64,000 nt of DNA from a virus. Every line of letters begins with the position of its first letter. Position 1 is the stretch's first letter. A program made the translations under genes and the position numbers. The DNA is taken from positions 1 through 64,000 of IMG/VR virus record IMGVR_UViG_3300042516_001464. The stretch is one strand, 5' to 3'. The notes under the pieces are model-generated. The model had not been told where the DNA came from and searched no databases. It was given only the letters and a program-made list of their open reading frames with translations. Below are positions 9,388 through 49,825 of this stretch, in pieces.

Positions 9388-11088
9388 ATGCCAATAGACT
9401 TTCCAAATTCTCCAACATTAAATCAAGAATTTACCGCAGCTGGTAAAACGTGGAAATGGAATGGATTTGCATGGAATTCAATTACCGTTGCGACAATAGG
9501 AGCAACTGGGGCGACTGGTTTGATTGGAGCTACGGGTGCGCAAGGAACTCCAGGTGGCGCGACTGGCGCAACTGGAGCTTCTGGTGCAACAGGCGCAACT
9601 GGAAGCATTGGAATTCAAGGAGAAATCGGATCGACGGGAGCTACTGGGATACAAGGCATACAAGGTGTTCAAGGAGCCACTGGCTCTACAGGGTTGACTG
9701 GATCGCAAGGTTCCACAGGTGCGACTGGTGTCCAAGGTGTAGAAGGAAGTACTGGAGCTACCGGATTAACTGGCGCGACAGGATTAACATCTCCAGCAGG
9801 TGGTATTCGTTGGGCATATACTGGAAATGGAACTCAAACTAATTTTAATATTGTTGGGTCAATTTCTACTCTTGCAACTGCATTCCTTGTAGCAATTGAT
9901 GGAGTAGTTCAAGACCCTAACAATTATACTATTTCTGGGACTGATCTTATAATGTCAGACCCGGTTCCCAATGGTAGTATTATTGTAATTGTTTCTTTAA
10001 ATGGACTTACTGGCGCAACTGGGCCGAGCGGAGGTCCAACTGGAGCAACTGGAGCTACTGGTGTAAACGGCATTGATGGAGCAACAGGAGCAACGGGCGT
10101 TCAAGGTGATGTTGGCGCAACAGGTGCTACTGGATTGAGCGGCAACGATGGTGCAACGGGTAGCACAGGTGCTACTGGAGTTGGAGCTACTGGAGCTACA
10201 GGAGTCGGAACGCAAGGTGCAACTGGCGCAACTGGTGCAACGCTTTCTCCTCAAATTGATATTTACGCTGGCTCAACTACTTGGACAAAACCAGCAAATG
10301 CAAAGCAAGTAGTTATCGAATGCGTTGCTGGTGGCGGTGGTGGTGGATATGGCGGCAAAGGCGCAGCAGGAACTGCTTTGTATGGTGGTGCTGGTGGAGG
10401 CGCAGGAGGATATAGTCGAGTTTCTATTGACGCATCTCAACTTACTGAAGCAAGTTATACTGTAACAGTTGGAATTGGTGGAACTGGTGGAATTGGCGCG
10501 ACTTTAACTAATGCTGGACTTGGAACATTTACTCGTTTTATAGGAGCAGTTCAGGGGCAATTAGCTGGTGCAAACTCTGGCGGCGCGCTTGCAGGAAATG
10601 GTGGGGTTAATTTACCTGCAACAGGTTCTGGTGGTGCGCCTACACCAAATTCAGGAGGCATAGCAAATATAACGGGAACTGCTGGAACAGGAACTGGTTC
10701 TGGATTTGCGCCTACATCCGGAGGTGCTGGAGGTGGACTAACAGCAGCAGCAGTTGTTGGATCACCAACTGGTGTATTTAATGGTGGTTCTGGAGGGAAT
10801 AACGCAATTGTTACACTCATAAGCTCTGGTGGCGCAGCGAGTTCAGTCGCAAATGGAGTTTCCGCAACATCAACTGCTGCCAGAACATTATCATCGCTCG
10901 TAATCAACGGGTCTGGCGGCGGAGGTGGTGGTGCTTGCTCGTTCGCTACTGGTTCTGGAGGCAATGGAGCCAATGGTTCTGGATATGGTTCTGGAGGTGG
11001 TGGAGGTGGATCAACCATTGGTTCTGGAGAAAGAAGTAATGGCGGCAATGGCGCACCCGGAGTCATGGTAATCACAACATACTTTTAA
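9388..11088 (+). CDS. Collagen-like and glycine-rich tail fibre
   Basis: 566 residues. The N-terminal 30 residues include [15 protein letters not shown], a frequent phage fibre head motif. Long Gly-X-Y triplets run over about residues 37-130 and 210-285, separated by a beta domain with W-A-Y-T-G-N-G. The C-terminal 270 residues are a glycine-rich domain like polyglycine-helix tips of some phage adhesins. The last 280 residues are paralogous to 38882-40573. Likely host-recognition fibre. Confidence 0.8.
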
Positions 11089-14663: not shown

Positions 14664-15518
14664 ATGGCAAAGAGAAAATACAATAGGCCTCAAACAATTT
14701 ATGAGGAGGAAATGAGTCCAGAAGAAAAGTATGGAACATCAAGATTTTTTGAATCATTAATTAGGTCTGATCCAGATTCACAATCAAGTTTTGATTATTC
14801 TCAACTTGATGAGAAGTATCCAATTAAATCTATTGGAGGAAGAATGCAACTTGAAGAGCAAAGGCGCAATGAAAATCCTTTTCTTGAAGAAGACATTGCT
14901 TATAGAACAAATATCATAAAGCAACGCGAATCAGAACTTGGGCTTAAAAAGGCTGCAAGAGATTTGGATATGTATGAATCGCAAATCAATCGCGAGGACG
15001 CAATACTTGAGCAAATTCCAGTTGCAAGGCAAAAACTATCCGATCTAGATGTTCGTGACCCTAATTTCATAAATAAGGCATACGATATTCAAGAACAGCA
15101 TCCATTAGCGTTTGAGAGTGATAAATTTCAAAAGTATATCTTTCAACCAATGCTTAATCGTAATTCGCGTTTGATTAGCCGAAAGCAGGATGGAGTAATA
15201 ACGCAAGAAGGGTTATCTAAAGCGATGGCAGAAATTTCAAAATATAACGAACTAATTGACGCTAGGGGCGAGGGGGTTGGTGCTTCAACGGAAGAGGATC
15301 GTTATCTTGGGTATTTGCAAAACCAAATTGACCAATTCTACGCGCAGAGGGGAATGGAGAATCCTAATGCAACTATGCCAATGCAAACACAACAAATGAA
15401 CCGACCAGAATCATTTTCATTTAACACTCCAGAAGAAGCGGAAGAGGCTAAAAGAAATAATATCTTGAAAGTAGGAGATAAAGTAATTATAGGTGGGAAG
15501 ACATACATTACTGAATAA
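14664..15518 (+). CDS. Hypothetical helical internal protein
   Basis: 284 residues, highly charged and helical over residues 45-230. It ends with a small K-V-G-D-K-V-I-I-G-G-K-T-Y beta element that resembles the end of an SH3-like strand pair. Its stop overlaps the giant gene start (TAATG), implying joint translation. Function unknown; probably delivered or assembled with the giant protein. Confidence 0.6.
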   Translation: MAKRKYNRPQTIYEEEMSPEEKYGTSRFFESLIRSDPDSQSSFDYSQLDEKYPIKSIGGRMQLEEQRRNENPFLEEDIAYRTNIIKQRESELGLKKAARDLDMYESQINREDAILEQIPVARQKLSDLDVRDPNFINKAYDIQEQHPLAFESDKFQKYIFQPMLNRNSRLISRKQDGVITQEGLSKAMAEISKYNELIDARGEGVGASTEEDRYLGYLQNQIDQFYAQRGMENPNATMPMQTQQMNRPESFSFNTPEEAEEAKRNNILKVGDKVIIGGKTYITE

Positions 15519-18500
15519 TGCCTTTCCGACTTTTAGATGAAGAGCCTAAAAAACTCGAAACAGAAATTACGCCTCAACAAACGCCAAGGATTGGGAGCTT
15601 TCGTCTTTTGGAAGACGAGCCAGCATTTGCTCAATCATCGCAACCTGCATACAAGTATGATGCTTCTCGTTTTCGCCCCAAGGGATTAACATCTACAAAA
15701 TCAACGCAAGAAGCCCCGGAAGAACAAAGTATCTTCCGTCAAGTAGCAGATATCCCACTTGGCATTGCCCGTGGCGGTGTGACTGGTATCAAGATGATGA
15801 CTGATATTCTTGGTGCTGATAATCCAGTATCAAAGTCATTAGCTGGAGTTGAGGGATACATGGCAGATTTGATGTCCGCTCAAGCAAAGGAAGATCAACA
15901 AGAGATTTCTCGCATTATGAAAGATGCCGAGGACAAGGGATTCGGCGAGCAGGTTAAGGCTGGTATTAAAGCGTTCAGCATTGCTCCAGTTGATATCATG
16001 TCTCAAGCGTTGGGAACAATGGCTCCTGTGCTTGCAACTGGTCTTGCTGGAAGCGCAGCAAAACTTGGAGCATTGGGGATTAGAGCGGTTCAAACTGGTG
16101 TTGGTGCTGGCATGGGTGCTGGCATGATTAAAGGCGAGATTTACAATGAGGTTAAAAACGAACTCATTAATTCTGGAACTCCAGAGGAGCTTGCCGAGAA
16201 AGCTGCTGTTGAAGCGCAATCTTACGGAGGAAAGAACCTAGATCAGATTTTACTTGGAGCAGGACTGGGTGCGGCATCTACATTGGGAGCAGAGCAAATC
16301 CTTACGAGGCTTATAACAAAACAAGGCGTTGCTCCATCTGCTGGTATTATATCTCGCACATTAAAGGGAGGTTTTACAGAAGCTATTCCAGAAGGCGTTC
16401 AAGCTGCACAGGAACAATTGGCAAAGAACGTTGCATTGCAGAGAGAGGGATTTGATGTTGACCCATCCCGTGGTGTTGTTGCTGCCGCTACGATGGAAGC
16501 TATTGCTGGCGCACCATTGGGTGGTCTTGCTGGAGCTGTTGAGCAGCCAGCTAAAGTTAAGACTCTTGAAGAGGAGAAATTTGAGCAGACCAATGAGATT
16601 GCAAGGAATGCTGCTGAAAATGGCGCACCACTTACTGCATCCGCACTTCAAGACAAAGCCGCCGCTAATCTAAATCAAGATGAGCTTGCAAGAAAACTTG
16701 AAGAAGAACTTTCGATTTCTGCCGTTAAACCATCTGTAGCCGCACCTATAGCTATTCCTACAAAAGATGAGTATGTCGCAAGGTATTCGGCTATTGCACA
16801 GGCAGCACCAGAAGAACTTACAAGAGCAGAGCAATCGTTCACAAACGAACTCACTACTGCCGATACAGAAGAGAAACGCATCAATGCACAGAACGCATTA
16901 GACGCAATTAAAGAAGTAAAAGCAGCAGCCGCTGCGCAACCACCAACAACATATGCCACTCAAGAAATCATCCAGCAACAAGGCGTTCGTGAAGAACCTC
17001 AAGACAGAACTCAAGTTGGGGCGACCACAGAAACAGGCGTTAGCGATAGCATACTCGACGCAACGAGAAGCAAAGAAGAAAGGCAAGTAGCCAGAGACAT
17101 CGTAAGCGAACTGCAAGCTGTAGCGAACAATACCGCCACAGGCGAGCAGATTGCCCGTCTATCGATGGAAGGACTCGTAGATGTCCGTAGAGGCCAAGCC
17201 ATCATTAACGAAGACGGTGAGGGCATTCTCGCGCAAGCACAAGCCCCATTGCCAAAGCTCACGCCAGAAGCAAGGGCTGCTGAAGTTGAAACTGCCCCAG
17301 CTACTCCGACTCCATCAGAACTTATCATTGGAGAAAAACCGCAAGTTTCTCCGATAGTAGGCGAGCAAGTTGCAGAGGCTACTCCAGCAGAACCAACTGT
17401 TAAGGAATCCTTGACAGTTCAGCCTGCACAAGCTGCACCCGTAGCTGCACCAGTAGAACAAGTAGTCACGCCACCAGTAGAGGTTGCACCAACCATTGCG
17501 GAGGCCGCTCCAGTTGAGCCGATTGCTCTTGCACCAGAAACTGCTGCTGTTGATAGATACACAGAGCTATCTCGCAATCCAAAAATCGGAACAGCTAAAG
17601 AACGAAAGGCTTTAGAACCAACTGTAGCAACAACAACATTCAAAACAAGTCGTGGCAGCACTTATTATATTTTGCCAGATGGGAAGATACGCCGAGACAA
17701 ATACTCTGGAACAACAAGTTACTCTGACCAGATTGCTTTTGTTTCTCCCGAAAACGCAGAAAAAATAAAAGAGATTCGGAATGAATATGAAGAAGGCAAG
17801 AATACTTCGGTTGAAATTACTCCAGAAGTAATCCGTTTTCGATTTAACGAAAAGATCGCAGAAGTTCCAATTGCTTCACAGTCACCGCAAGAAGGGCTTT
17901 CTCCCTTTGAACTATCTGGTGGAAGATACCCGCATTTAGGTGATCCGGTAGTATCTCCCGCACCAGTCACCGAGCAAGCTGCACCAGCAGAAGCTCCCGC
18001 GCCAGAGGGTGCGCCTGCCCCACAAGTTGAACAAGAAATTGAAGTAGGTGATGAAGCGTCTGTTAATCTCGCTGGAAGAAATGAAACTGTAACCATTGCT
18101 CGTATAGAAGACATCAACGGGGTTCCAACGGCATACTTTGATTATTTTGGATACAAGTCTCGACCATTAGCTGAAATGCAATTGGTTAAAAAATCAAAAC
18201 AAAACATAGCAAAGGCTGAAAGAAAAGCAAAAGAGGCAAAGGCATCTCAAATAGAAATTACTCCACCTAAACCAGAAGACTTTTTTTCAAATGAAGAAAT
18301 AGCAAGTCTTGTATCTGGAAAAGCTCCTGATGGATGGAAGTCCGACACATCTACACGCGATGATTTTTTTCTAACAGATACAAATGGGAAGCGTTGGAGT
18401 TTTAAGCCACAGTATGAAAATGGTGAAATTACATCAATTCTTATGCGTGCTGAAGGGCAAGTTACAGGCGTTACAATTACTAAAGCGCCCACTCCAGCAG

Positions 18501-21500
18501 TATCTGAAGCTCCAACTCAGCCAGAGGGCATCGCAGTAGGCAACCGCATCAAGTTAGGCAAGAGTCCACAGACATACACCATTGAAGAAGTAATTCCGCA
18601 GACAGCAACAGAGAGAGATTTGGGCGAGCAGTATTACTCTGTGAAGAACGAACGCACTGGAGAGGTGCAAGTAGTAGAGGCAATGGACATGAAGAAAGTT
18701 GGTGGGAAGAGAGCGCGGAAGATGGCAATTTCAGATGGAACGATTTCATACAATCAACTCCCAAGCAACATCCAGAAAGAAGCCGATTTTGTTCCTAACA
18801 AAGAATCAACATTGTGGAAGTTGGAGCAAGTATCCGTTGAAGACTTGATGGAGAATAGCCCCGCTGGAATGACTGGAGATATTTCTGAAATTGAAGGCTA
18901 TGATATAGATTCATTAATTAAAAGCATTAGGAAAGATGGAGTCAAGCAACCCATCGTGATGGTTCGCAATGCAGATGGATCAATTGATATTGAAGGTAAT
19001 CATCGAGTATATGCTGCGTATGAAGCTGGGCTTGATACAATCCCGGCTTATGTCCTACAAAAACAAGGCATTCTTAAACAGGCAGTCGAAGAGAAGATTT
19101 CTAAAACAGCATTGATTGATAAAGATGGAAGCATCATTAGCGCACCAGACAAAAATCACGCAATGCTAATGGAGGAGAGCCAGTTTAATTTGGATGCTGG
19201 CGAGTATCCTCCAATGGAGAACTATGGGTTTGTTACAAACTTTGGAAGATTCGTTGGTCAGAAGGAAGCGCAGGAGATCGCTCGTAATTCGCAGCAAGTT
19301 ATAGGAGGGCAGCAAATCAGCGGAGAGCTTGTTACTGCAATCAACGAAGAAGAGAGTGCGAATATTTTGAGGCTCAATGTCCAAGGTGCTTCTGGAAACA
19401 AATTCAATGAAGCAGGGTTCAAGAGATTCCCCGGCATTGCTGTTACGAGAACTAATTCTGAAACACTAACATCGCATCCGCTATACAATGCTGCCAAACG
19501 ATTCAACAATGTAGAGGCTGCTAAAATCATTGTTGATGAATTTGTAGACGATCAAATGGTGTTTGATGTGTTTACCAACATTGATCCAAACAAGCCAGCG
19601 TATATTGTGCCTGTTCTTAAAGGTGAAGCTGATTCAATGAATATGCTTCCAGTCGCATTGGCTGAAAAACTTTCCAATGCAAGCGGAGTCCCCGTGTGGG
19701 GTAACTTGATTCAAGCAACTTCAGAGCAAAGCACAGGCGCTGGGGTGAATGAAAAGACAGAGATATCAAGGCAATTCATGGGTGAAGCTCCTCCAGCCGG
19801 ATCGCAGATAATTATCGTTGATGACTATCTTGCTACTGGCAGAACAATTGCATCGCTTGAAAACATGACTGGAACAGCATCTTCTGTTGCGACAATAGCT
19901 TCTGGAAGATACGGAAATCAATATGGCTTAACTACTCAACGAGCAGAAAAACTCCTTGAGAAGGCAGGCATTACAAGAGAGAGATTTTATGAAATATATG
20001 GACTACAACCAGAACAAGCAATCACAGGAATCGAGGCCCAGGCTTACATCCTCAATGGGGCCGCTGGCGAAGGTGGACTCACAAGTAGATTCCCTGTCGA
20101 AAAAATTTCACCAAGCAATGAAGGAATTAAAAACATTGCGAATGTCCCAGAATCAGTAGTTCTATTTGCTGGTGGTGGGCTTACAGAGCTTGGACTTGTT
20201 GGGATTGTAAGAAATGGATATGTTGTTGAGGCCAATCAACGGATAGCTGAATTCTACGAGGAAGCTCATGGCGTTCCTGTAATTCAAGACTATGTCCAGA
20301 ATGTAAAGTTTTATGGTATTAATGGAGGTCATCTACACGCATCCCCCGTTTGCAAAAACTTCTCTACTGCTAAAAACAAACAACAAGTTACAGAGCAAGA
20401 TAAGATTATTGACAGAGAAGCTGCTGGCGCTGTAGCTCAAGCAATTAGGGACATACAACCAAATACTGTTTCTATTGAAAATGTAACTGGATACAAAGAT
20501 ACAGAATCATACAATTCCATTATCTCTGCGCTTGAGGAGAATGGTTATATTTATGATGCGAATTTTTACAACGCAAATGATTTTGGAGCGCCAACATCTC
20601 GCAAGCGTTTGATTGTTAGAGCAGTTAAAAAGGGTGGAGTTCTTCCAGAAATACGCAAGAAAAAGAAAAGAATGTCTTGGTATGATGCCGTTAAGGACAT
20701 CGTAAATGATTTGCCGGATCACGATATCAATGCCGCGAGGTATCCAGCCAGAATGATGTCCTACTTGGCTGCAAAGGGAATTGATATTTATAATGTTGAT
20801 CAACCGCTTTTGATTAGCGGAACTGATGGCAAAACATTCCGCAATGCAGATCAGCCAGCAATGACATTCTTGGCTACTCCAAGGGCGCTTAATATTATTG
20901 CTCTTCCTGGTGGCATCATTAAGAAGGTCACAGCACGGGCAATGGCAAGAATGACTGGCGTTCCAGATTCATTCCCGCTACCAGCAGATGAGGCTCTTGC
21001 AAAAACTATTATTGGAAACGGAATTCCTCCTGCGCTTACAAGATCGGTAATTGGCGACTTGATTCAGAAGAATGAAAAGCCAGAAGTTGCCGTTCCAAAA
21101 GTAGCAGCTGAAAAGAATCAATATACATTTGATGCAGCTGAAAAAGAAGTTACAAATTTCTTCGGTGAAATGCCGGAAGGAATTGTTATTGTAAACAATA
21201 CAACCGATCCAGACTTGCAATTTAAAGCCGGATACGATGTGAAGACAGGTGAAATTATTATTAACCTTGCATACATCGATAAGAAGGAAAATATCGGAGA
21301 CATTATCTCTCACGAACTTGGGCATTATATCTTTGGTGATCCGCAATTCCGGGCAGACTTCCAAGAGTTTTGGGACATGATGACTCCAGAAGAACAGGCT
21401 GAAGCTGATAGGATTATCAACCAATTTTACAACAACGAGACTAACGAAACCAAAATTGAAGAGAAACAGATTCGCGCATTCATGCAGTTGATCTCTGACT

Positions 21501-24500
21501 CTAAAGCTCAACCACAATGGAAGCAATTGCTAGATAGCATCAAGCGTTGGATGAACAAATACTTTGGAACTAAATTCCAAACAACAGATAGGACTGCATT
21601 GGCTATCCTTTCTACTGCAATGAATCGCTTTGCAAGCGGGGAGCGAATCATCCGTGAGATTGATTCTGGCGTGCTGAAGATGGCAGCAGAGCCAAAGCGT
21701 GAGAAGGTAGCAGGCAAAGAGCGTGGAGAGATCATCACCACTCCAGAAGGGATTATTAAGCAAACGCAAGAGGTGCTACGAAACAAGTTCTTTGATGGAA
21801 CGGAAGTTTCAGATAATGCAACTCAACAAGCGTGGAACTATATAGAGCAGTTGTTGGATATTAAATCCGGCGCGGCCAATGCGCTTGCAGGACAGATTAA
21901 CGATGTAGTTGATCAAGAGACGAATTCTGACTCCAGAATGGGGGCAAGTTTGTTTTCTGTATCTTTGGCTAACTATGCCGCGAAGCTCGCTGCTCAAGGT
22001 GACATGACAATGCTTCCATACATTATCCGCAGGATCAATCGTATGCCAGTTGATAACCTTGCTGGGGGCAGAAGCGAAGCTGGTGAAGCGTTGAGAGCTG
22101 CAAGGGAATATCAAATCGATGGATTCAATACGCTCAAGACAGAAGACAAGGCGAAGGTTGAAAGAACAGCAGCTACATTGTTTGGAACTGATAAGCCAAG
22201 CAAAGATCAAGTAAAGGTTGTTGAAGATGCTATTAAGGCTTCCGAGGATGAAACAATTGGTAATCCAGAGGATGTTGCCGCTGAAATTGAGAAGGTTGAG
22301 AATAGAACTGGCAGAAGGGTTGTTGACAAGGTCGAAGGTAAGATCAAGGAATCAACAGAACCAAAAAAAGAAGAGCTTCTTATTTCATTTGAGAATTTAG
22401 ATGCAGACAAAAAGATCAAAGGCATCACGCTTAAATACAGCCCACAGAAAGTAAATGTAGTCAAAAACATTCAGAACCTCATCATCGGCAAGATGGTTGA
22501 TTATCGAAAAGCACTTGTTAATCAAGGCGCAGGTGGACTTGAATCTACATTCTGGCAGACGATGAGCAGTCTGGAAAACAAGCCCGGACCATTGGGTGAG
22601 ATTGACCAGGCTCAAAACAACGAGCTTGCAAGAATTGTTAAGAACACGCTTATCAAACTTGGGCTTCAAGGTGAGCCTAAGAATACAAAAATGACGGACA
22701 TTGAGAAGGTTGCGTCCATCTTGAACGAGAATAAGTTGAGTGATGAGAAGAGACTTGAAGCTGATCAACGGATTGTTCAAGAGATTGAGCGTAGAAGGCA
22801 GAGTGAACTTGCATCCGGCTCAAGCCCAGAAGCTGTAAATGCAAAATACGATGTCATTCTCGATGCTTGGAATGAAGCGATGAGCAGGCAGTTGAATATG
22901 CCGATTAGCGATAATATGCTTCAGCGTTTGCTGAAATCGGAAATAAAACAACGCAATACTCAGATTAGCGAACTCATCAATGAGAATGACGGAAGAGTTG
23001 TTGAGGAAGTTAAGAACGACATTGTTGATTCTATTATTCGCAGAATCTATGGTGTTTCTAAAGAGTCCGAAACAGGAATTGAGATGGATGAGGATTACAG
23101 CAATCTTCAGTCATATCTCAAGCAGACGATCAACAATATGTATGCAACAGCTATCCAGAAGAAGAATGCTGCATACGCAAAGCGTCAAGCTGAGAGAAGC
23201 CTCAAAAATAATGTTGATGCACAAGCGCAATCAATCATCAATCAACTCTCAACGGAGTTAAGTGATACCCCATCATTCTCGCCGCAAATAGAAAACAAGG
23301 TTAAGGTTATTGTTCAACAAGACTTGAGGCAAAATCCAAACATGGGACGTAAGCAACCATGGACAAGCCAGCTTACAGCAAAGCTCATTGACGCTGGTGT
23401 GGACGAGACACAGGCTCAAACAATCTCTGAACTAACCTGGAGACAGCATGAGATTAAGAAGATGGATCGTGATCTTAAGGAACTCAAGACAGCAGCTGAA
23501 AAAGGATCGCTTGCCGTTATCATTGATCGAATCAAAACAACGCCATTAGAGAAGCAGCAAGAGCCTAACTGGATGCAAGGCGTGATTCGTGAATACTTGG
23601 TTGAAGCCGGACTATCTGATAAAGCTGCTGAAACTGCCGCGAAACTATACGAAAGCGTAATCTCTGAAAAGTTCGCAGAAGCGAAACAAAAAGCATTTGA
23701 AACAACACTTAATAAATCCGCTCCGTGGCAAAACTATCTTTCAAGAAATAGCCGACTTGGCAAGGACGCATTGAAGAGAATTCAAGACGCGATTAGAACT
23801 GGAGTTCTTGATCCAACGCAAAATGTCGAAAGCATTATTGCAAGAGAGAATGGGTGGTCTGGTTTTACTAAAGAACAATTCCAACGCATTGTTCAATTGG
23901 ACAATGTTATATCCAGTCCAGATACAGACCAAGTTACAAAAGCGGAGGCAATGGACGAGCTTAACAAGATCATCGTTAAGGCGAAGATTCCAGTAAGATT
24001 CAAGGATGCCATCGGCGCATATTATGTTGGTCAGGCGCTTATGGGTATTCCAACGCTAACCGTTAACATTGCGTCACCTATTGGGTTCTCTGTCAGAAAT
24101 CTTATCACAGATATCGGACGCTATGCGTTTACTGAACCATCGAGAATTCCAATGGCATTTGAAACATTCTTGGATAGTATGAAGTCTTGGTATAACCAAA
24201 GCTCATACGCATTCAGAAACCAAATCTACATGAATGATGTGGTTGAGTATTTGAATGGTCAGAATGTTCTTCGTGAATTGTTTGACAAAGGAAAAGCTCA
24301 ATGGGCTAAAGGTGAGTATGCGAACGGCATGGCAAATATGCTTGTTGGCATGACGCAAATTACTGGTCGAGTTCTGTCGGCTTTGGATCAAGGCGCTATC
24401 TCTATGTTGGAGAATCAAAACATTACGAGATATGCGATGGAGGCAATGAAGCAAAGAAACATTCCGCAATCAAAGCGGAAGGAGATTGCCAACATGATCT

Positions 24501-26011
24501 TTGATACACGCAGAAGGACATATGCAGAAAATGTTGCTGCTGGCATGGAGAAAGATCGCGCTGGTGTGCTGGCTGATTTGGCAGTCAGAAGCGAGATTAT
24601 CAATGCGCTTTCTCCAGAAGGAATTGATTTCAAGGATGTATTGGATTCTGCTATTAACGACTCATTGCAATCTGTTGGTAGAAACAAGACAATTAATGTT
24701 GATGGAATTGTTAAGGAGAATGAAAGGCTATCTGATGCGGGTGTGCTGTCTTATCTTCCAATTGAATTCCTCCAAAAGATAGCATCCGGCGCGGCAAGTA
24801 GTGGGCCATTGATGCAGGTATTCTCCAAGATGGTTTATGGATTTGCTCTTGTCCCAGCCAGAGTATTCCATACAACAGCCTGGTATTCTCCATATGGATT
24901 CATTCGACTTGGTATTGATGCTTATAAAAAGAATAAGGGCGAAGATTCGCCATATGCGATGAGTTTGCAAACAGACCTGCAATACAAGCAAAGGCTTACA
25001 GACGCTATCGCCGGATCAATTGTCATGCTTGGACTCGCCGCTCTTGCAAGTGGATCAGCTGATGATGACGAAGAGAAGAAGTTTAAGATTGTTATTACAG
25101 GTAATGGTCCAAGTTATTCAGCAGACAGGCAGTTCTTTGATGCGTGGCATAAAAAGTATAAGCCATACAGCATTAATATTGTTATGGGCGATACCGTTAT
25201 TCCAATCAACATTGGACGAGGCGGCGAGGCATTGTTCTTCCCAATTATGCTTGCTGGCGCATTGGACGATTGGGGAATTAAAAAGAAACTTAATCTTACC
25301 AAAAAAGAACCAGAAGACTTGAACCTCGCTGTGGAAGTGTTGGGGTCATCATTCTTTGCCTTGGCTCAAAGAGGGCCATATGCTGCGTTTACCAAACCAT
25401 TGTTTGATGCATCTAAAGAAGGCAAGATTACAGAAGAACTTGTTAGCCAAGCCGGGTTCTTTGGTAAAACATTTGTTCCGATATTAGGTTCATCTCTTTC
25501 AAGGAATATTTCTGACTTTATTAACGATCCAATTGATAGGTCTTCATTGGAGGGAGCTATCTACGCTAATACACCTATTGTTGGTCCGTGGATGGGCGCT
25601 AAAGCTCTTAATGCATTGGGGCAACCAATTAGGGCGGACGATTGGGGAGATAGGCTATTTAAGCTCGGAGTGCCAGTTGTATTCTCATTCCCTAAAAATA
25701 CTCCAGAGAATGAACTCAATGAGCTTATCCTTCAGAAAGGAAGTGGACCATCAATCCCAACAAGAGCCAATGCGCAGAAACGATTTGGTGATGTTCTGAC
25801 AGATAAAGAGTTTGAAACATATGTGCGTGAATATGGACGAGTTGTGTCTGACAAGATGTTCAAGAACAGGAAACAACTTGAAAAGATGTCTGTCAAAGAT
25901 TACGATGATGAACTTCAAAGATATGTCACGGGATACTCAATCGATGGAATTAAAATTACTGGGGCATCAGATATGGCAGTTCGTGCTGTAAGAAGGATGC
26001 GAGGCGAATGA
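15518..26011 (+). CDS. Giant polyvalent protein: ParB-like, PRTase, C5 methylase and Zn-peptidase domains
   Basis: 3497 residues. The N-terminus repeats F-R-L-L-x-x-E-P twice, then has an Ala/Gly-rich hydrophobic part (about 165-320) and a long Ala/Pro/Glu linker. Domains seen: ParB/sulfiredoxin-like (1100-1185, with E-G-N-H-R); phosphoribosyltransferase (1300-1490, PRPP loop I-I-I-V-D-D-Y-L-A-T-G-R-T); cytosine-C5 methylase (1540-1850, F-A-G-G-G, S-P-V-C-K-N-F-S with Cys1612, E-N-V, R-K-R-L); zinc peptidase (HELGH at 1932-1936). A long helical part follows, then a C-terminal domain with hydrophobic patches (about 2820-3190). This matches the known class of phage polyvalent proteins injected with DNA. 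The methylase motif has Val and Lys where PCQ is usual. Confidence 0.85.
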   Translation: MPFRLLDEEPKKLETEITPQQTPRIGSFRLLEDEPAFAQSSQPAYKYDASRFRPKGLTSTKSTQEAPEEQSIFRQVADIPLGIARGGVTGIKMMTDILGADNPVSKSLAGVEGYMADLMSAQAKEDQQEISRIMKDAEDKGFGEQVKAGIKAFSIAPVDIMSQALGTMAPVLATGLAGSAAKLGALGIRAVQTGVGAGMGAGMIKGEIYNEVKNELINSGTPEELAEKAAVEAQSYGGKNLDQILLGAGLGAASTLGAEQILTRLITKQGVAPSAGIISRTLKGGFTEAIPEGVQAAQEQLAKNVALQREGFDVDPSRGVVAAATMEAIAGAPLGGLAGAVEQPAKVKTLEEEKFEQTNEIARNAAENGAPLTASALQDKAAANLNQDELARKLEEELSISAVKPSVAAPIAIPTKDEYVARYSAIAQAAPEELTRAEQSFTNELTTADTEEKRINAQNALDAIKEVKAAAAAQPPTTYATQEIIQQQGVREEPQDRTQVGATTETGVSDSILDATRSKEERQVARDIVSELQAVANNTATGEQIARLSMEGLVDVRRGQAIINEDGEGILAQAQAPLPKLTPEARAAEVETAPATPTPSELIIGEKPQVSPIVGEQVAEATPAEPTVKESLTVQPAQAAPVAAPVEQVVTPPVEVAPTIAEAAPVEPIALAPETAAVDRYTELSRNPKIGTAKERKALEPTVATTTFKTSRGSTYYILPDGKIRRDKYSGTTSYSDQIAFVSPENAEKIKEIRNEYEEGKNTSVEITPEVIRFRFNEKIAEVPIASQSPQEGLSPFELSGGRYPHLGDPVVSPAPVTEQAAPAEAPAPEGAPAPQVEQEIEVGDEASVNLAGRNETVTIARIEDINGVPTAYFDYFGYKSRPLAEMQLVKKSKQNIAKAERKAKEAKASQIEITPPKPEDFFSNEEIASLVSGKAPDGWKSDTSTRDDFFLTDTNGKRWSFKPQYENGEITSILMRAEGQVTGVTITKAPTPAVSEAPTQPEGIAVGNRIKLGKSPQTYTIEEVIPQTATERDLGEQYYSVKNERTGEVQVVEAMDMKKVGGKRARKMAISDGTISYNQLPSNIQKEADFVPNKESTLWKLEQVSVEDLMENSPAGMTGDISEIEGYDIDSLIKSIRKDGVKQPIVMVRNADGSIDIEGNHRVYAAYEAGLDTIPAYVLQKQGILKQAVEEKISKTALIDKDGSIISAPDKNHAMLMEESQFNLDAGEYPPMENYGFVTNFGRFVGQKEAQEIARNSQQVIGGQQISGELVTAINEEESANILRLNVQGASGNKFNEAGFKRFPGIAVTRTNSETLTSHPLYNAAKRFNNVEAAKIIVDEFVDDQMVFDVFTNIDPNKPAYIVPVLKGEADSMNMLPVALAEKLSNASGVPVWGNLIQATSEQSTGAGVNEKTEISRQFMGEAPPAGSQIIIVDDYLATGRTIASLENMTGTASSVATIASGRYGNQYGLTTQRAEKLLEKAGITRERFYEIYGLQPEQAITGIEAQAYILNGAAGEGGLTSRFPVEKISPSNEGIKNIANVPESVVLFAGGGLTELGLVGIVRNGYVVEANQRIAEFYEEAHGVPVIQDYVQNVKFYGINGGHLHASPVCKNFSTAKNKQQVTEQDKIIDREAAGAVAQAIRDIQPNTVSIENVTGYKDTESYNSIISALEENGYIYDANFYNANDFGAPTSRKRLIVRAVKKGGVLPEIRKKKKRMSWYDAVKDIVNDLPDHDINAARYPARMMSYLAAKGIDIYNVDQPLLISGTDGKTFRNADQPAMTFLATPRALNIIALPGGIIKKVTARAMARMTGVPDSFPLPADEALAKTIIGNGIPPALTRSVIGDLIQKNEKPEVAVPKVAAEKNQYTFDAAEKEVTNFFGEMPEGIVIVNNTTDPDLQFKAGYDVKTGEIIINLAYIDKKENIGDIISHELGHYIFGDPQFRADFQEFWDMMTPEEQAEADRIINQFYNNETNETKIEEKQIRAFMQLISDSKAQPQWKQLLDSIKRWMNKYFGTKFQTTDRTALAILSTAMNRFASGERIIREIDSGVLKMAAEPKREKVAGKERGEIITTPEGIIKQTQEVLRNKFFDGTEVSDNATQQAWNYIEQLLDIKSGAANALAGQINDVVDQETNSDSRMGASLFSVSLANYAAKLAAQGDMTMLPYIIRRINRMPVDNLAGGRSEAGEALRAAREYQIDGFNTLKTEDKAKVERTAATLFGTDKPSKDQVKVVEDAIKASEDETIGNPEDVAAEIEKVENRTGRRVVDKVEGKIKESTEPKKEELLISFENLDADKKIKGITLKYSPQKVNVVKNIQNLIIGKMVDYRKALVNQGAGGLESTFWQTMSSLENKPGPLGEIDQAQNNELARIVKNTLIKLGLQGEPKNTKMTDIEKVASILNENKLSDEKRLEADQRIVQEIERRRQSELASGSSPEAVNAKYDVILDAWNEAMSRQLNMPISDNMLQRLLKSEIKQRNTQISELINENDGRVVEEVKNDIVDSIIRRIYGVSKESETGIEMDEDYSNLQSYLKQTINNMYATAIQKKNAAYAKRQAERSLKNNVDAQAQSIINQLSTELSDTPSFSPQIENKVKVIVQQDLRQNPNMGRKQPWTSQLTAKLIDAGVDETQAQTISELTWRQHEIKKMDRDLKELKTAAEKGSLAVIIDRIKTTPLEKQQEPNWMQGVIREYLVEAGLSDKAAETAAKLYESVISEKFAEAKQKAFETTLNKSAPWQNYLSRNSRLGKDALKRIQDAIRTGVLDPTQNVESIIARENGWSGFTKEQFQRIVQLDNVISSPDTDQVTKAEAMDELNKIIVKAKIPVRFKDAIGAYYVGQALMGIPTLTVNIASPIGFSVRNLITDIGRYAFTEPSRIPMAFETFLDSMKSWYNQSSYAFRNQIYMNDVVEYLNGQNVLRELFDKGKAQWAKGEYANGMANMLVGMTQITGRVLSALDQGAISMLENQNITRYAMEAMKQRNIPQSKRKEIANMIFDTRRRTYAENVAAGMEKDRAGVLADLAVRSEIINALSPEGIDFKDVLDSAINDSLQSVGRNKTINVDGIVKENERLSDAGVLSYLPIEFLQKIASGAASSGPLMQVFSKMVYGFALVPARVFHTTAWYSPYGFIRLGIDAYKKNKGEDSPYAMSLQTDLQYKQRLTDAIAGSIVMLGLAALASGSADDDEEKKFKIVITGNGPSYSADRQFFDAWHKKYKPYSINIVMGDTVIPINIGRGGEALFFPIMLAGALDDWGIKKKLNLTKKEPEDLNLAVEVLGSSFFALAQRGPYAAFTKPLFDASKEGKITEELVSQAGFFGKTFVPILGSSLSRNISDFINDPIDRSSLEGAIYANTPIVGPWMGAKALNALGQPIRADDWGDRLFKLGVPVVFSFPKNTPENELNELILQKGSGPSIPTRANAQKRFGDVLTDKEFETYVREYGRVVSDKMFKNRKQLEKMSVKDYDDELQRYVTGYSIDGIKITGASDMAVRAVRRMRGE

Positions 26012-28159: not shown

Positions 28160-28710
28160 TCGTTAAAGCAAAATTACAAATAGCAGAAGTTGATAAACTT
28201 GTTCAATACTGCAAACAGTTAGACGGAACTGTCGTCAAAATTATCCAGAATGACGAGAAGGTTACGAGCTATCCAGAACGCAATAATCATGCGTTACAGC
28301 AGGCGTTTAACGCAATGGGTGACGAGCCTTTCATTTGGCTTGAACCTGATAGCATTCCGTTGAAGGAGGGGTGGGTTGCTGCACTTGAGGAAGAGTATCG
28401 TAAGCTTGGGAAACATATAATGTTATCAAGTGACACTCACCCTCCGCACGATATTGTCGGAGGAATAGGTGTGTATGGAGGTTTAGCCAAAAAGCTAATA
28501 CCGGCAGGGATTAAGGCAGATGGATGGGATGGATGGACAATAAAGAACATCAAGCCATTAGTTTCCTTCACTCCGTTAATTCAACACACATACGGAGACT
28601 ATTCAAAAGGGGGATGTGACCAGCATATCTTTCCAAGAGACAATCACATTATCCGCGAAGATGCCGTGATATTCCACAGAGACAAACAGCAGGGATTAAT
28701 CAATAGATAG
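28147..28710 (+). CDS. GT-A glycosyltransferase-like protein
   Basis: 187 residues. F-I-W-L-E-P-D-S-I-P-L-K-E-G-W fits the metal-binding acidic motif and following segment of GT-A glycosyltransferases, with Glu-Pro-Asp in place of DxD. Short for the family, so perhaps a minimal domain. It overlaps the methyltransferase by 13 bases and, tail to tail, the terminase gene by 11 bases. Confidence 0.6.
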   Translation: MQAVIVKAKLQIAEVDKLVQYCKQLDGTVVKIIQNDEKVTSYPERNNHALQQAFNAMGDEPFIWLEPDSIPLKEGWVAALEEEYRKLGKHIMLSSDTHPPHDIVGGIGVYGGLAKKLIPAGIKADGWDGWTIKNIKPLVSFTPLIQHTYGDYSKGGCDQHIFPRDNHIIREDAVIFHRDKQQGLINR

Positions 28711-30493
28711 AACGGAACTTGCTGAACGCTTGCTTCCATCCGCTGCTTACAACCTTATTGTTCGCATTTAACGCCTTTGTTGCCTTTCCGCTATCAAGGT
28801 TCAGCCTCTCCCTCGCAAGAGCTAATAGACCCATCCCTGCGTCAGCAATGTCAGGGGATATTCCAAACCTTGATTTCATTTCCGACTTAGGCAGAACTTT
28901 AATGCGGAGAGCCAGATTCTTTTCTCCATTAGGATCAAGCTTCCTCATGCACATTTCCCGCAGCAAGTCATCGCTTATGCCCTTGATCTGACCAGTGCGC
29001 ATATACTCTTTGGCTGAATACCAAATTTCAGATACAGAGTTTACATACCTTTCGTGTGATGGAGTTGGATCATAAGCTGACACTGGATTTTCAGATGCTC
29101 GCCCACCAAATTGAAGGCCATATACATCTTTTGACCATGCTACGGAGATAAAATCTCCTAGCGGACCACCAGCGCCGGACTTATCGTATCCAGCATTCTT
29201 AGGCTGAACGCCTCTCGCCAAGCACTCATTACGAAACCACTGCACTACCTGCTGTGATCTCGTCATGGATTTGTCAGTAACATCCTCACTGAATACAAGA
29301 AACTCGTCATACTGAAGTCCTCGATAACCATGCGGTTCAGCAAGCTTCCCAACAGTTCCGAAATAAAGCACCGTTCTATCTCCACCATTGGTAAATGAAG
29401 GATCAAGGAACGCAACCTTCGCCTTATCATTATCAAGCCATACAGCTTTATCTGTAGCCTTTGAATTTAATATTTCAATCTCTGAGTAGATTTGATCCGT
29501 AATTCCAGCCGGACACCAAAATCCACGATACATACGCCAGAATGACGATGTGTTCTTTGCATCTTCTGGAATCTTGTCAAAGTCTTGTGGACCCTCCATC
29601 CATGGATAAATCTTCTTTCGTGCGATCATGTTTGGATTCTTCAACCCGTCAAAGTGCAAGCACACTCCACGATCTGTTTTCCACTCCTCATCGTCGACAT
29701 CAATAGAATCCCATCCTCCGCTTGGCTTGGCGAACTTACCAAACGCATCAACATAGGAAGCCGGGTTTGAAATGCCGATAAACTGAAAGCGTTCGCAACC
29801 TTTGGACAAGTTAAAGAACGCAACTTCAGTAATAGCTTCAGATAACTCTGAAAGTTCGTCAGCAACAAAGATTACATTTTTGTTGTGGATACCTTGCATC
29901 TTGCCAGTAGCGTCACGCTCTTTCTTTTTCTCACCAGGAATAAGCACAATTCCAGAAAGGTCTGATCGCTTTCCGTCTCTTCCGACATAGCTAATCTTAT
30001 TCTCCGAATCTACGAGATGCCCTGGTAATCCAAGTTGTTCACACACTCCCCAATACCTTGTGATCTTTCCCCATATACGCTGCTTGGATGCTTTGATCGT
30101 GGTGGATGTGGCAAGAACAGTTGTATTCTCTGGATCGCAAAGGTAGTTGATGATAGCCCAAATTGCGTATGCTTCAGACTTACCACAACCGCCAGACCCG
30201 GCTATAGCGAGATACTCATGGTCACAAGCTGCGCGAATCATTCGTTCAGCCCATGGATGCCAAATGAAATTTACAGCAGCCTTCGCGTCTCTTTCCGGCC
30301 AAAACGCTTTTGCTATCCTTTGGAAGTGGTGAAATGTATCAACGCCACCAGTGTCTTTAGGTATTCTGTTTTTAATCTTCTCACGAAACATAGCCAGCTC
30401 AATAGCTATTTGGTGAGTATTCTTGCGCCAGTTAAATCCATATTGATGCAAGTAGCCATCCATTGGATCGCCAAAAATAGGAGCGAAATTCAT
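28700..30493 (-). CDS. terL: Terminase large subunit
   Basis: 597 residues. Walker A is G-S-G-G-C-G-K-S (99-106), Walker B V-I-F-V-A-D-E-L (207-214), coupling motif F-I-G-I-S-N-P (238-244). The RNase H-like nuclease has candidate acids D364 (F-L-D-P), D437 (G-Y-D-K) and D548/D551. It pumps DNA into the capsid with ATP and cuts it. Unusually it is the only minus-strand gene among the virion genes, 25 kb from the small subunit, with its own promoter. Confidence 0.92.
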   Translation of the reverse strand: MNFAPIFGDPMDGYLHQYGFNWRKNTHQIAIELAMFREKIKNRIPKDTGGVDTFHHFQRIAKAFWPERDAKAAVNFIWHPWAERMIRAACDHEYLAIAGSGGCGKSEAYAIWAIINYLCDPENTTVLATSTTIKASKQRIWGKITRYWGVCEQLGLPGHLVDSENKISYVGRDGKRSDLSGIVLIPGEKKKERDATGKMQGIHNKNVIFVADELSELSEAITEVAFFNLSKGCERFQFIGISNPASYVDAFGKFAKPSGGWDSIDVDDEEWKTDRGVCLHFDGLKNPNMIARKKIYPWMEGPQDFDKIPEDAKNTSSFWRMYRGFWCPAGITDQIYSEIEILNSKATDKAVWLDNDKAKVAFLDPSFTNGGDRTVLYFGTVGKLAEPHGYRGLQYDEFLVFSEDVTDKSMTRSQQVVQWFRNECLARGVQPKNAGYDKSGAGGPLGDFISVAWSKDVYGLQFGGRASENPVSAYDPTPSHERYVNSVSEIWYSAKEYMRTGQIKGISDDLLREMCMRKLDPNGEKNLALRIKVLPKSEMKSRFGISPDIADAGMGLLALARERLNLDSGKATKALNANNKVVSSGWKQAFSKFRSIY

Positions 30494-47010: not shown

Positions 47011-47433
47011 ATGAGTTGCATACCAGACATTCAAACCACAAACGAAATGTATAATCTATATCTAAAAGGATATAGTATTTCTCAAGTTGGAAAAGCGTTT
47101 CAAGTATCAAGGCAAACCGTATTCCAGAGATTTAAAAGAGCGGGAATGGAACTTCGATCAAAAGCGCTTTTGCCATTCATGGTTTTTAATGGGAAAAAAT
47201 ATACATTAAGAAATAATGGATATTTAGCCTGCACAGGTGGAGTTCGCTCTTCAATGCATCGCGATGTTTGGTGTTTTCACAATGGGGAAATACCAGAAAA
47301 TTATGACATTCATCACATCAATGGAAACAAAACAGACAATCGTTTAGAGAATCTACAAATTTTACCTAAATCAGAGCATACAAAACTGCACGGATTTAGG
47401 GGAAACCAACACACAAAAAATAGAAACAAATGA
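47011..47433 (+). CDS. HNH homing-type endonuclease with N-terminal HTH
   Basis: 140 residues: a helix-turn-helix (about 20-42, S-Q-V-G-K-A-F-Q-V-S-R-Q-T-V) for DNA recognition and an HNH_3 part with D-I-H-H-I-N-G-N-K-T-D-N-R-L-E-N-L. The order is HTH then HNH. Its stop overlaps the start of the WPTP-repeat gene by ATGA. A second HNH module lies inside that gene, so this region has probably received two separate nuclease genes. Confidence 0.8.
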   Translation: MSCIPDIQTTNEMYNLYLKGYSISQVGKAFQVSRQTVFQRFKRAGMELRSKALLPFMVFNGKKYTLRNNGYLACTGGVRSSMHRDVWCFHNGEIPENYDIHHINGNKTDNRLENLQILPKSEHTKLHGFRGNQHTKNRNK

Positions 47434-49724
47434 AACCATGCACAATAATAATACCATCGTCCCTTACATCAGTCTTTGTTCCGGCTATGAAGGCATCGGA
47501 ATTGGACTCCACCGCTGTATCCGAAATCTTCGCTGCATCTCTTACTGCGAGAGGGAATCATTCGCCATCGCAAACTTGGTTGCGAAAATGGAAAAAGGAT
47601 TACTGGACTCAGCTCCTGTTTTCACAGATGTCACAAATTTCCCATGGGGAGACTTCACTCCATACATGGCTAAAGGAATTTTGTCCTTTGGATGGCCGTG
47701 TCAACCAGTCTCAAGCGCAGGAAAGCGAAAAGCAACAGAAGATGAGCGATGGTTATTCGACATCATCGCAGATGGAATTTCAATTATGCAACCCGGAATG
47801 CTCTTCGCAGAAAATGTCGAAGGACTCTTATCAGCAAAAATGCCAGACGGATCAAGCGTCTTCGGACACTGCATCGAGAGATTGGAGAAGCTACATTATA
47901 AAGTTGAGGCAGGAATATTCAGTGCGAGCGAAACAGGCGCTCCGCACCAACGCAAAAGAATCTTTATCCTGGCCTACCGCGAGGAGCAGGGATTGGAAGG
48001 ACTCAGGGAACTTGAGTCAAACTTCCTATGGAATGACATTGGGCAGGATGGCGCAGCAGAATGCGAATTGGCCTACGCCAGCGGTGATGGATACAACGGG
48101 AGGCAGCTACAAGACGGAATGGGTAGATGGAAGGGCGGTCAGCTACCACAATCACAAAGAGGAGAATCCGGTAGCTTACGGGGCCAAACTTTCGGATGCA
48201 GTGGCGAATTGGCCTACAGCGAGAACATCGGATTGCAAGAATCCATCAATACAGAGAATGAAAGTTGGATCGGATGGTGGAAACAAAATCCAGCTGCGGG
48301 AAGCAGTAGCGAAGGAGGAGATGAGTTGTTCCAATACGGAGGAATTAGTGTGGTTAACCCCAACGACAACACAAATACAGAGGCGGGATATGCAGAAGCG
48401 GATAGACTATCGGGAGAGCATAGGCCGGAAGTATGTGCCGGGTTCATTGGAGGAACAGATGCAGCATCACTCAAACGAACCAGTGAATTGGCCGACACCT
48501 ACAACAGCGGAAGCTGGGAAGATATCAAACCAGCCGAATTACGGACAGATATGCTTGAGCAATCATCCGGCAATTGTTGGAACTCCCAATCGTCCGAAGG
48601 GGATCAAAGATGGCCTTCTCGCCCAGGACAAACACAATACGCATGGGAACCACCCAGAACTATTGGAAAAATGGAAAATGGTTCCTGGTTGGGGCGACAA
48701 ATATCAAGTCAGCAATCACGGAAGAATGCAGTCCAAGGCGAGTGGGGATTGGAGAGAGATGACCTTAACAATCAAGGACACGGGATATCTGAATGCGAGC
48801 TTGAGGCACGAAGGAAAACAGAAAAAAGTAACGATCCACATTCTGGTTGCGATGCTGTTTCTTGGGGAAAGGCCAAGTGGATTGGTGATAAATCACATAG
48901 ACGGCAACAAGTTGAACAACTGCATTTGGAATCTGGAATATGTGACAGCAGCAGAGAACAACCGCCATGCTCAAATGATGGGTTTGAATTGCACGAAAGG
49001 AGAATCCAATCCAATGGCGAAGCTCAATACAGACCAGGTAGAGGAGATACTACAATCAACGGAATCGCAGTTAGTAATAGCGAAGCGGATGAATGTATGC
49101 CAACAAACCATATCGTTGATTCGTTCTGGAAAAAGGTGGAAAGGTTTGAAGCAAGAGTCATGGCCGACACCAACGATGCAGGACGGCAAGCAGGGAGGGA
49201 TAACTCCATCTCAGATGGTGGAAGGAGCTGGTCACACGGGACTGCTTCACATTGCAGCAATAAAGCAAGAGCAATGGAGGACACCATCTGTAGCGGAAGC
49301 AAAGAATCAAAATACATCAACACAAGTTTATCTTCAGAACCAAGTCGGAGCTACTCCGAAACAATGGGCGACTCCTCAAGCGAGCGACCACGTGGAGGGA
49401 CGCAGGACGGACTTGGACAGCAATCAGAAATGTTTGGGGAGAGACATGAAGAAGTGGGCGACTCCGAGTGCGTTCGACTTCAAGGATGGGGAGAGCAGGG
49501 AACAATGGGAGAAGAGAGCTGCATTCCAAGCGGAGAAGGGCGTGAGTCTTCAACTTCCGCTCAAGAGCCAATCGATACAGGAGGCGGGAACGATGAGTCC
49601 CAGTTCAGCAAAATTGAATGCGAGATGGGTCGAAACTCTCATGTCGCTTCCAATGGGATGGGTATGCCCGTCATGTCCAGCCTCTGTGATTCAGAACTGG
49701 AAGAAATTTATGAGTGGATGGTGA
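47430..49724 (+). CDS. WPTP-repeat protein overlapping the methyltransferase, with embedded HNH endonuclease
   Basis: 764 residues in the frame -1 to the methyltransferase. Nine repeats start at W181, W214, W261, W308, W354, W578, W616, W646 and W676; the pattern is W-P-T-P-x-x-x-D-x-K or close to it. Between the fifth and sixth repeat (about 412-576) lies an HNH endonuclease: a NUMOD4-like start (V-P-G-W, Y-Q-V-S-N-H-G-R), HNH with V-I-N-H-I-D-G-N and N-L-E-Y-V-T, and an HTH tail. The C-terminus L-N-A-R-W-V-E-T-L-M-S-L-P-M-G-W looks like a conserved ending. I recall similar (W/L)PTP-rich proteins close to methylases in other phages, but could not check. Function unknown. Confidence 0.6.
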   Translation: MKPCTIIIPSSLTSVFVPAMKASELDSTAVSEIFAASLTARGNHSPSQTWLRKWKKDYWTQLLFSQMSQISHGETSLHTWLKEFCPLDGRVNQSQAQESEKQQKMSDGYSTSSQMEFQLCNPECSSQKMSKDSYQQKCQTDQASSDTASRDWRSYIIKLRQEYSVRAKQALRTNAKESLSWPTARSRDWKDSGNLSQTSYGMTLGRMAQQNANWPTPAVMDTTGGSYKTEWVDGRAVSYHNHKEENPVAYGAKLSDAVANWPTARTSDCKNPSIQRMKVGSDGGNKIQLREAVAKEEMSCSNTEELVWLTPTTTQIQRRDMQKRIDYRESIGRKYVPGSLEEQMQHHSNEPVNWPTPTTAEAGKISNQPNYGQICLSNHPAIVGTPNRPKGIKDGLLAQDKHNTHGNHPELLEKWKMVPGWGDKYQVSNHGRMQSKASGDWREMTLTIKDTGYLNASLRHEGKQKKVTIHILVAMLFLGERPSGLVINHIDGNKLNNCIWNLEYVTAAENNRHAQMMGLNCTKGESNPMAKLNTDQVEEILQSTESQLVIAKRMNVCQQTISLIRSGKRWKGLKQESWPTPTMQDGKQGGITPSQMVEGAGHTGLLHIAAIKQEQWRTPSVAEAKNQNTSTQVYLQNQVGATPKQWATPQASDHVEGRRTDLDSNQKCLGRDMKKWATPSAFDFKDGESREQWEKRAAFQAEKGVSLQLPLKSQSIQEAGTMSPSSAKLNARWVETLMSLPMGWVCPSCPASVIQNWKKFMSGW

Positions 49725-49825
49725 AGTGTGAGAATCGCACGGATGAATTACGCTTGCTGGGTAATGGCGTGGTTCCGGCAACAGCAACGAAAGCATTCAT
49801 AACTTTATTCAACAAACTCAAATGA
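47438..49825 (+). CDS. Cytosine-C5 DNA methyltransferase with very long spacer
   Basis: 795 residues. Motif I S-L-C-S-G-Y-E-G-I-G (12-21), motif IV F-G-W-P-C-Q-P-V-S with catalytic Cys88, motif VI E-N-V-E-G (125-129), motif VIII H-Q-R-K-R-I-F-I-L (170-178), motif X L-L-G-N-G-V-V-P-A-T (773-782). The gap between VIII and X is about 595 residues, far more than the usual target-recognition region, and has short repeats such as E-L-A-Y, E-L-A-D-T, M-A-D-T and V-G-D-S, produced by the same DNA that encodes WPTP in the other frame. The start is eight bases inside the overlapping gene. Likely protects phage DNA from restriction. Confidence 0.8.
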   Translation: MHNNNTIVPYISLCSGYEGIGIGLHRCIRNLRCISYCERESFAIANLVAKMEKGLLDSAPVFTDVTNFPWGDFTPYMAKGILSFGWPCQPVSSAGKRKATEDERWLFDIIADGISIMQPGMLFAENVEGLLSAKMPDGSSVFGHCIERLEKLHYKVEAGIFSASETGAPHQRKRIFILAYREEQGLEGLRELESNFLWNDIGQDGAAECELAYASGDGYNGRQLQDGMGRWKGGQLPQSQRGESGSLRGQTFGCSGELAYSENIGLQESINTENESWIGWWKQNPAAGSSSEGGDELFQYGGISVVNPNDNTNTEAGYAEADRLSGEHRPEVCAGFIGGTDAASLKRTSELADTYNSGSWEDIKPAELRTDMLEQSSGNCWNSQSSEGDQRWPSRPGQTQYAWEPPRTIGKMENGSWLGRQISSQQSRKNAVQGEWGLERDDLNNQGHGISECELEARRKTEKSNDPHSGCDAVSWGKAKWIGDKSHRRQQVEQLHLESGICDSSREQPPCSNDGFELHERRIQSNGEAQYRPGRGDTTINGIAVSNSEADECMPTNHIVDSFWKKVERFEARVMADTNDAGRQAGRDNSISDGGRSWSHGTASHCSNKARAMEDTICSGSKESKYINTSLSSEPSRSYSETMGDSSSERPRGGTQDGLGQQSEMFGERHEEVGDSECVRLQGWGEQGTMGEESCIPSGEGRESSTSAQEPIDTGGGNDESQFSKIECEMGRNSHVASNGMGMPVMSSLCDSELEEIYEWMVKCENRTDELRLLGNGVVPATATKAFITLFNKLK
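48663..49157 (+). mobile_element. HNH endonuclease module inserted in the dual-frame gene
   Basis: About 495 bases encoding NUMOD4-like, HNH and HTH segments, in frame with the WPTP gene and flanked by WPTP repeats on both sides. The methyltransferase frame stays open across it. No target duplication was seen. Boundaries are approximate. Confidence 0.6.

Follow-up and report, generated by a model that had tools for sequence, protein, structure and literature searches.

Two overlapping reading frames of a phage locus probably encode the two domains of one C5 methyltransferase

Our analysis of 64,000 nucleotides of viral DNA (positions 1 to 64,000 of the 67,811-base IMG/VR record IMGVR_UViG_3300042516_001464, hereafter the window) supports the model that two overlapping reading frames, M and W, specify a dual-coded, two-polypeptide C5 methyltransferase, with the large catalytic domain encoded in M and the small domain, for DNA recognition, in W. 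We put the probability of this model at about 0.8. Frame M (47438..49825, 795 residues) contains C5 motifs I to VIII and X; frame W (47430..49724, 764 residues), which reads in the M+1 frame, carries a series of WPTP modules and, after them, a motif-IX-like segment. All coordinates given for the locus are on the plus strand of the window. The overlap is real and not a product of chance. Selection follows M through motifs I to VIII, changes to W over the WPTP modules and the IX-like segment, and reverts to M for motif X. In relatives that form a single chain, the C-terminal half is homologous to the end of W.

The two frames and the selection on each

An initial annotation of this DNA had described two frames jointly open for about 2.29 kb, and the list of open reading frames (ORFs) bears this out, with the W ATG lying 8 nucleotides upstream of the M ATG. 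Every C5 motif that it had assigned to M was located: the motif I region (SGYEG, 47480..47494), motif IV with the catalytic cysteine (PCQP, 47696..47707), motif VI (ENV, 47810..47818), motif VIII (QRKR, 47948..47959) and motif X (RLLGNGVVP, 49751..49777), where substitutions follow M. In addition, M matches phrog_363 and Pfam DNA_methylase (1.2e-27), the latter match covering motifs I to VIII, and W matches phrog_1008 (6.8e-22). The nine WPTP-like repeats described for W are present as nine W-x-T-[P/A] units starting at 47970, 48069, 48210, 48351, 48489, 49161, 49275, 49365 and 49455, within a variable region (47970..49613) that is split by an HNH insert and in which substitutions follow W. 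The motif-IX-like segment, LNARWVETLMSLPMGW, lies in frame W directly behind it (49614..49661). Along with these motifs and repeats, the locus holds two features that had been overlooked, namely NUMOD4 and HNH domains in frame with W and the lack of motif IX in M. In alignments, neither motif IX nor a conserved target-recognition region is seen in M, which has a long linker instead. M thus has the motifs of a C5 methyltransferase and, judging from a compact relative, its large-domain fold; by itself it is not a complete single-chain enzyme, the IX-like segment being selected in W.

The two frames stay open far beyond what their coding constraints predict. When the synonymous codons of one protein were redrawn and stops counted in the other frame (5000 shuffles), fixing the M protein gave about 15-17 expected W-frame stops, with a minimum of 4-7, against 0 observed within the W ORF; fixing the W protein gave about 34-56 expected M-frame stops, with a minimum of 17-36, against 0 observed. 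Elsewhere in the window, both alternative frames of the genes hold many stops.

This arrangement is conserved. A profile search with W provided 80 viral loci, taken out of at least 366 candidates, plus 24 genome loci, and W is the M+1 frame in all loci of that search in which motif IV was found. Relatives of M in viral contigs have the same second frame open, and their third frame has many stops. Across 73 non-redundant loci, the W-selected region contains 81 M-frame stops versus 517 expected, and 65 of the 73 have none. The other eight have M-frame stops near the neutral number (for example 11 versus 11.2 and 17 versus 20.1). Coding for W is thus not enough by itself to hold M open. Reciprocally, W-frame stops over the M-selected half number 53 versus 266 expected, with none in 59/73 loci, and at some loci M is closed while W remains open.

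Homologues of the 764-residue frame, whose existence beyond this sequence the initial annotation had left to be established, turn out to be abundant in other phages. The two-frame layout recurs in many phages that are not related to one another, and most annotations give it as one gene. The genome loci with W include Verrucomicrobiota, Bacilli, Pseudodesulfovibrio, Comamonadaceae, Thiothrix and Actinoplanes. Annotated relatives include Paenibacillus phage Tadhana gp54/gp55, gp62 of Paenibacillus phage Lily (whose gp63 is annotated as "g62 internal gene"), gene 58 of the laboratory Escherichia phage N15, one gene each of Salmonella phage SEN4 and a Xanthomonas phage, the last annotated in two overlapping frames. 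In single-gene shuffles the length of the +1 open stretch has P = 0.01 for N15, P = 0.003 for the Xanthomonas phage and P = 0.017 for SEN4. N15 gene 58 (locus L185, 512-1507) is annotated as a single gene; its +1 frame has WxTPTAS-like modules and LNPHHSRWLMGLPVEW. Querying the phage collection with the window's W, represented by its N-terminal half, returned one record only; most annotated phages are probably too distantly related to be reached in this way. With W from Paenibacillus and with W from Comamonadaceae, about 100 matches were obtained in each case.

Substitution patterns reveal which frame is selected where. We analyzed 38 disjoint locus pairs, dropping low-similarity pairs in later runs, with 34 flanking control genes as the baseline; these look ordinary, with substitution of.083/.048/.201 at codon positions 1/2/3. 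Motifs IV-VIII behave as an ordinary M-frame gene, at.084/.050/.183 for M codon positions 1/2/3. The WPTP region has the pattern of W (.160/.088/.097), and the IX-like segment has it most strongly (.269/.066/.023, and a rate of 0.274 at W wobble sites versus 0.022 at W second positions); in the stretch to motif X the M pattern returns (.093/.044/.253). Bootstrapping placed the ratio of M position 3 to position 1 (p3/p1) at 0.60 (0.48-0.75) in the variable region, 0.08 (0.04-0.12) in the IX-like segment and 1.09 (0.85-1.39) in a W-constrained patch upstream of motif IV. The class of changes synonymous in both frames is small and transition-biased, and ratios using it were given little weight. 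Between the window and locus L044, differences at positions 1/2/3 number 19/12/42 in the N-terminal half, 16/5/1 in the HNH insert, 25/6/7 after it, 8/2/2 in the IX-like segment and 2/0/4 at motif X. Codon-position-specific constraint was thus found in both frames, including in this single comparison, and true dual coding, which the initial annotation had preferred to a chance shadow, is strongly supported by the shuffles and the substitution patterns. Its view that the repeats had shaped both proteins has to be qualified: in the repeat region M is stop-free with only weakly constrained residues, and because selection is mainly on W the repeats did not shape the two proteins equally.

Split and fused relatives and the missing half of M

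In M.HhaI-type enzymes the small domain consists of the variable region and motif IX, and it is there that specific DNA contacts are made (PMC3404938). These small-domain parts are missing from M and present in W. How the two frames relate becomes apparent in phages that arrange the same parts differently. In Peaches, Heather and loci L089, L137, L141 and L144, M stops after motif VIII, and W spans the PTP modules, the IX-like segment and motif X. Conversely, a mycobacteriophage family (DLane gp65 and about 20 relatives) has motifs I-VIII, PTP modules, the IX-like segment and motif X in one frame, and split members occur within that family as well (L168, L171 and L174). A profile of 93 W-end segments matches the fused chains just before motif X, where motif IX is placed, with E values of 4e-11 to 1e-6. 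The existence of split and fused forms leads us to infer that W supplies the methyltransferase's missing half. A motif-IX-like segment would lie on a second polypeptide at the same locus, and its profile matches fused relatives; we tie it to motif IX because of its position and the fused chains, as it has no sequence match to the ordinary motif. A three-part form was also seen, at L031 and L064, in which M is closed after motif VIII, W is complete and an M-frame stretch of its own, with a possible ATG start, holds motif X.

Structure prediction with AlphaFold2 (AF2) is consistent with this division. For L183, a fused chain, the large domain and the motif X helix are modeled confidently and the middle is uncertain; the model aligns with residues 12-325 of M.HhaI (Z 21.6, 251 aligned residues, root-mean-square deviation (rmsd) 5.1). 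For L007, a compact nested relative of M, AF2 produces the large domain and the motif X helix, joined by a linker with a predicted local distance difference test (pLDDT) score below 50, and M.HhaI is the best match (VIA-align 2; Z 19.0, 214 aligned residues, rmsd 4.2).

In the model that we favor, M would be the catalytic large domain, with motifs I-VIII, a C-terminal motif X helix and an unstructured linker in the place of the small domain. W, translated from its own ATG, would supply that small domain in the form of the WPTP array followed by the motif-IX-like segment, and both chains would assemble into an active enzyme in the manner of known two-polypeptide C5 methyltransferases. The modules would most likely serve as exchangeable recognition units, such that phage DNA would be marked at several sequences and several host restriction enzymes escaped. 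An HNH homing endonuclease has inserted between modules in frame W with M kept open.

Several observations weigh against this model. Opposite motifs IV-VIII, W shows little or no W constraint (p3/p1 about 2.2). The profile of W-end segments finds no match in ordinary phage C5 enzymes, and a strong Shine-Dalgarno sequence is not visible at the start of W or M. Moreover, AF2 confidence is below 50 over the module region of L183, and a target-recognition fold is therefore not established by that prediction. The first of these points brings substitution in motifs IV-VIII close to what M alone would give, as it would be if W were an open shadow of M with no product. We consider such a shadow extremely improbable: the shuffles and the W-type substitutions over the modules and the IX-like segment contradict it, and it does not account for a recognizable HNH endonuclease in frame W or for the loci in which M is closed and W open. 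A shadow arising by chance was ruled out by codon shuffles, substitution patterns and the conserved stop-free frames.

The order of selection along the gene, from M to W to M, would also fit programmed frameshifting, in which the ribosome would leave M for W behind motif VIII and re-enter M ahead of motif X, yielding one chimeric chain as the active enzyme; the split forms, with I-VIII in M and PTP modules, IX-like segment and X in W, would need one shift only. We regard this as unlikely, given that it leaves unexplained both full-length frames that are stop-free far beyond chance and the W-constrained patch upstream of motif IV. In addition, the M stops of split loci fall 9-60 codons past motif VIII without an obvious shared slippery context. 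Stop-linked programmed frameshifting in particular was rejected, as those stops differ in place and context.

Alternatively, M could be a complete methyltransferase alone and W an independent overlapping phage protein, for example a DNA-binding or anti-restriction protein. M does retain motifs I-VIII and X and stays open as a continuous protein, and W begins at a start codon of its own and is constrained in an N-terminal patch. We nevertheless find this quite improbable: M is without motif IX and has no conserved target-recognition region, the corresponding linker of the compact relative has a pLDDT below 50, and single-chain methyltransferases have the end of W as their C-terminal half. In several loci, W also includes motif X. 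An unrelated W was judged unlikely once the fused single-chain relatives had been found. The initial annotation had paired a methyltransferase with a separate WPTP-repeat protein; two halves of one enzyme are most likely instead.

WPTP modules and homing endonucleases

By a simple split, the W set contains 393 WPTP modules, 1-8 per W, and several types recur in distant loci. As in multispecific methyltransferases, the modules stand in tandem between motifs VIII and IX, and they are probably exchangeable target-recognition units. In L023 (3966-5513) and L029 (4023-5309), W runs beyond motif X, with more TP-type modules downstream of the methyltransferase end; these extra modules may be spare or silent cassettes.

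The window's module array is interrupted by a 165-residue NUMOD4 + HNH_3 homing-endonuclease insert in frame W (48663..49157, residues 412-576; Pfam HNH_3 1.2e-12, NUMOD4 3.8e-8), flanked by modules in the order GNHPEL, insert, SWPTP. The M frame is open across it too, with 0 stops versus 14.9 expected (0/20000 shuffles). L044 shares the insert with 22 differences in 495 nucleotides, 16 of them at W wobble sites, and the two W proteins are more divergent elsewhere (65% in the best matching segment). A near-identical insert in an otherwise more divergent W points to recent mobility. The Pfam scan of W returned NUMOD4, HNH_3 and a sub-threshold CENP-B_N only, and no search was aimed at inteins.

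Directly upstream of W lies a free-standing HNH endonuclease ORF (47011..47433) with a resolvase-type helix-turn-helix and HNH_3; it ends in a stop codon that shares bases with the W start (ATGA). In two other phages, HNH-like genes are reported to precede methylases (PMC11855218). Farther away, the window has a 3497-residue ORF (15518-26011) whose first 994 residues are without a PHROG match, a minus-strand 597-residue ORF (28700-30493) amid plus-strand genes that has no Pfam match, and two genes with collagen triple-helix repeats (9388-11088 and 7967-9190), one of which also has a glycine-rich domain. The collagen-repeat genes are probably tail or fiber parts.

Relation to known enzymes and implications

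C5 enzymes made of two polypeptides are known. The small ORF of M.EcoHK31I reportedly lies out of frame inside the large one. This enzyme (YGGCCR) has motif IX on its second, smaller polypeptide and motifs I-VIII and X on the larger (PMC3404938), and the IX-like segment is similarly placed in W. However, the predicted target-recognition domain of M.EcoHK31I is on the large subunit (PMC3404938), whereas selection on the variable region acts in W here. With its nine WPTP modules and HNH insert, the version in the window is also much larger than M.EcoHK31I. M.AquI separates a catalytic half (I-VIII) from a recognition half (the distal variable part, IX and X) on two polypeptides (PMC3404938). The split loci Peaches gp77/gp76 and Heather gp35/gp36 are divided in the same way; the window differs in having motif X in the catalytic frame and frames that overlap across nearly the whole gene.

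The multispecific C5 enzymes of Bacillus phages SPR, SPbeta and phi3T are known as single chains in one frame, unlike the two frames found here, and the likeness lies in module arrangement. They show that phage C5 enzymes with tandem target-recognition domains exist (PMC8936443). In phage ShiLan (PMC11855218), an HNH homing endonuclease sits inside a C5 methylase in another frame with the methylase frame open. The resemblance is one of kind. The window's HNH shares its frame with W, a second protein conserved over its full length, and the portion of the ShiLan account covered here mentions no such protein. In the literature covered, from which subscription journals were mostly absent, we found no description of a conserved second frame in phages; GenBank records annotate it sporadically. 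New here are how widely the arrangement occurs, with phage N15 among its carriers, the arrays of modules, and a homing endonuclease that has no stop in either frame.

These findings lead us to consider it reasonably likely that phages and prophages harbor a large and mostly unrecognized class of C5 enzymes whose two domains lie in overlapping frames, collinear with a single-chain ancestor or descendant. In this class selection would change frame at domain boundaries, the recognition frame would hold shuffled cassettes, and homing endonucleases adapted to be open in both frames would invade. Database entries listed as one methyltransferase, as "DNA methylase (x2)" or as a hypothetical protein are probably, in many phages, a two-part enzyme, and an annotated ORF expressed alone may yield an inactive or unspecific protein. 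Long same-strand overlaps with both frames measurably selected are rare, and here a reason is visible: one enzyme, two domains, two frames. The fused, split and nested forms constitute a natural series for the origin of overlapping genes, and they may put into context the HNH insertions that lie, puzzlingly, out of frame in mycobacteriophage methylases.
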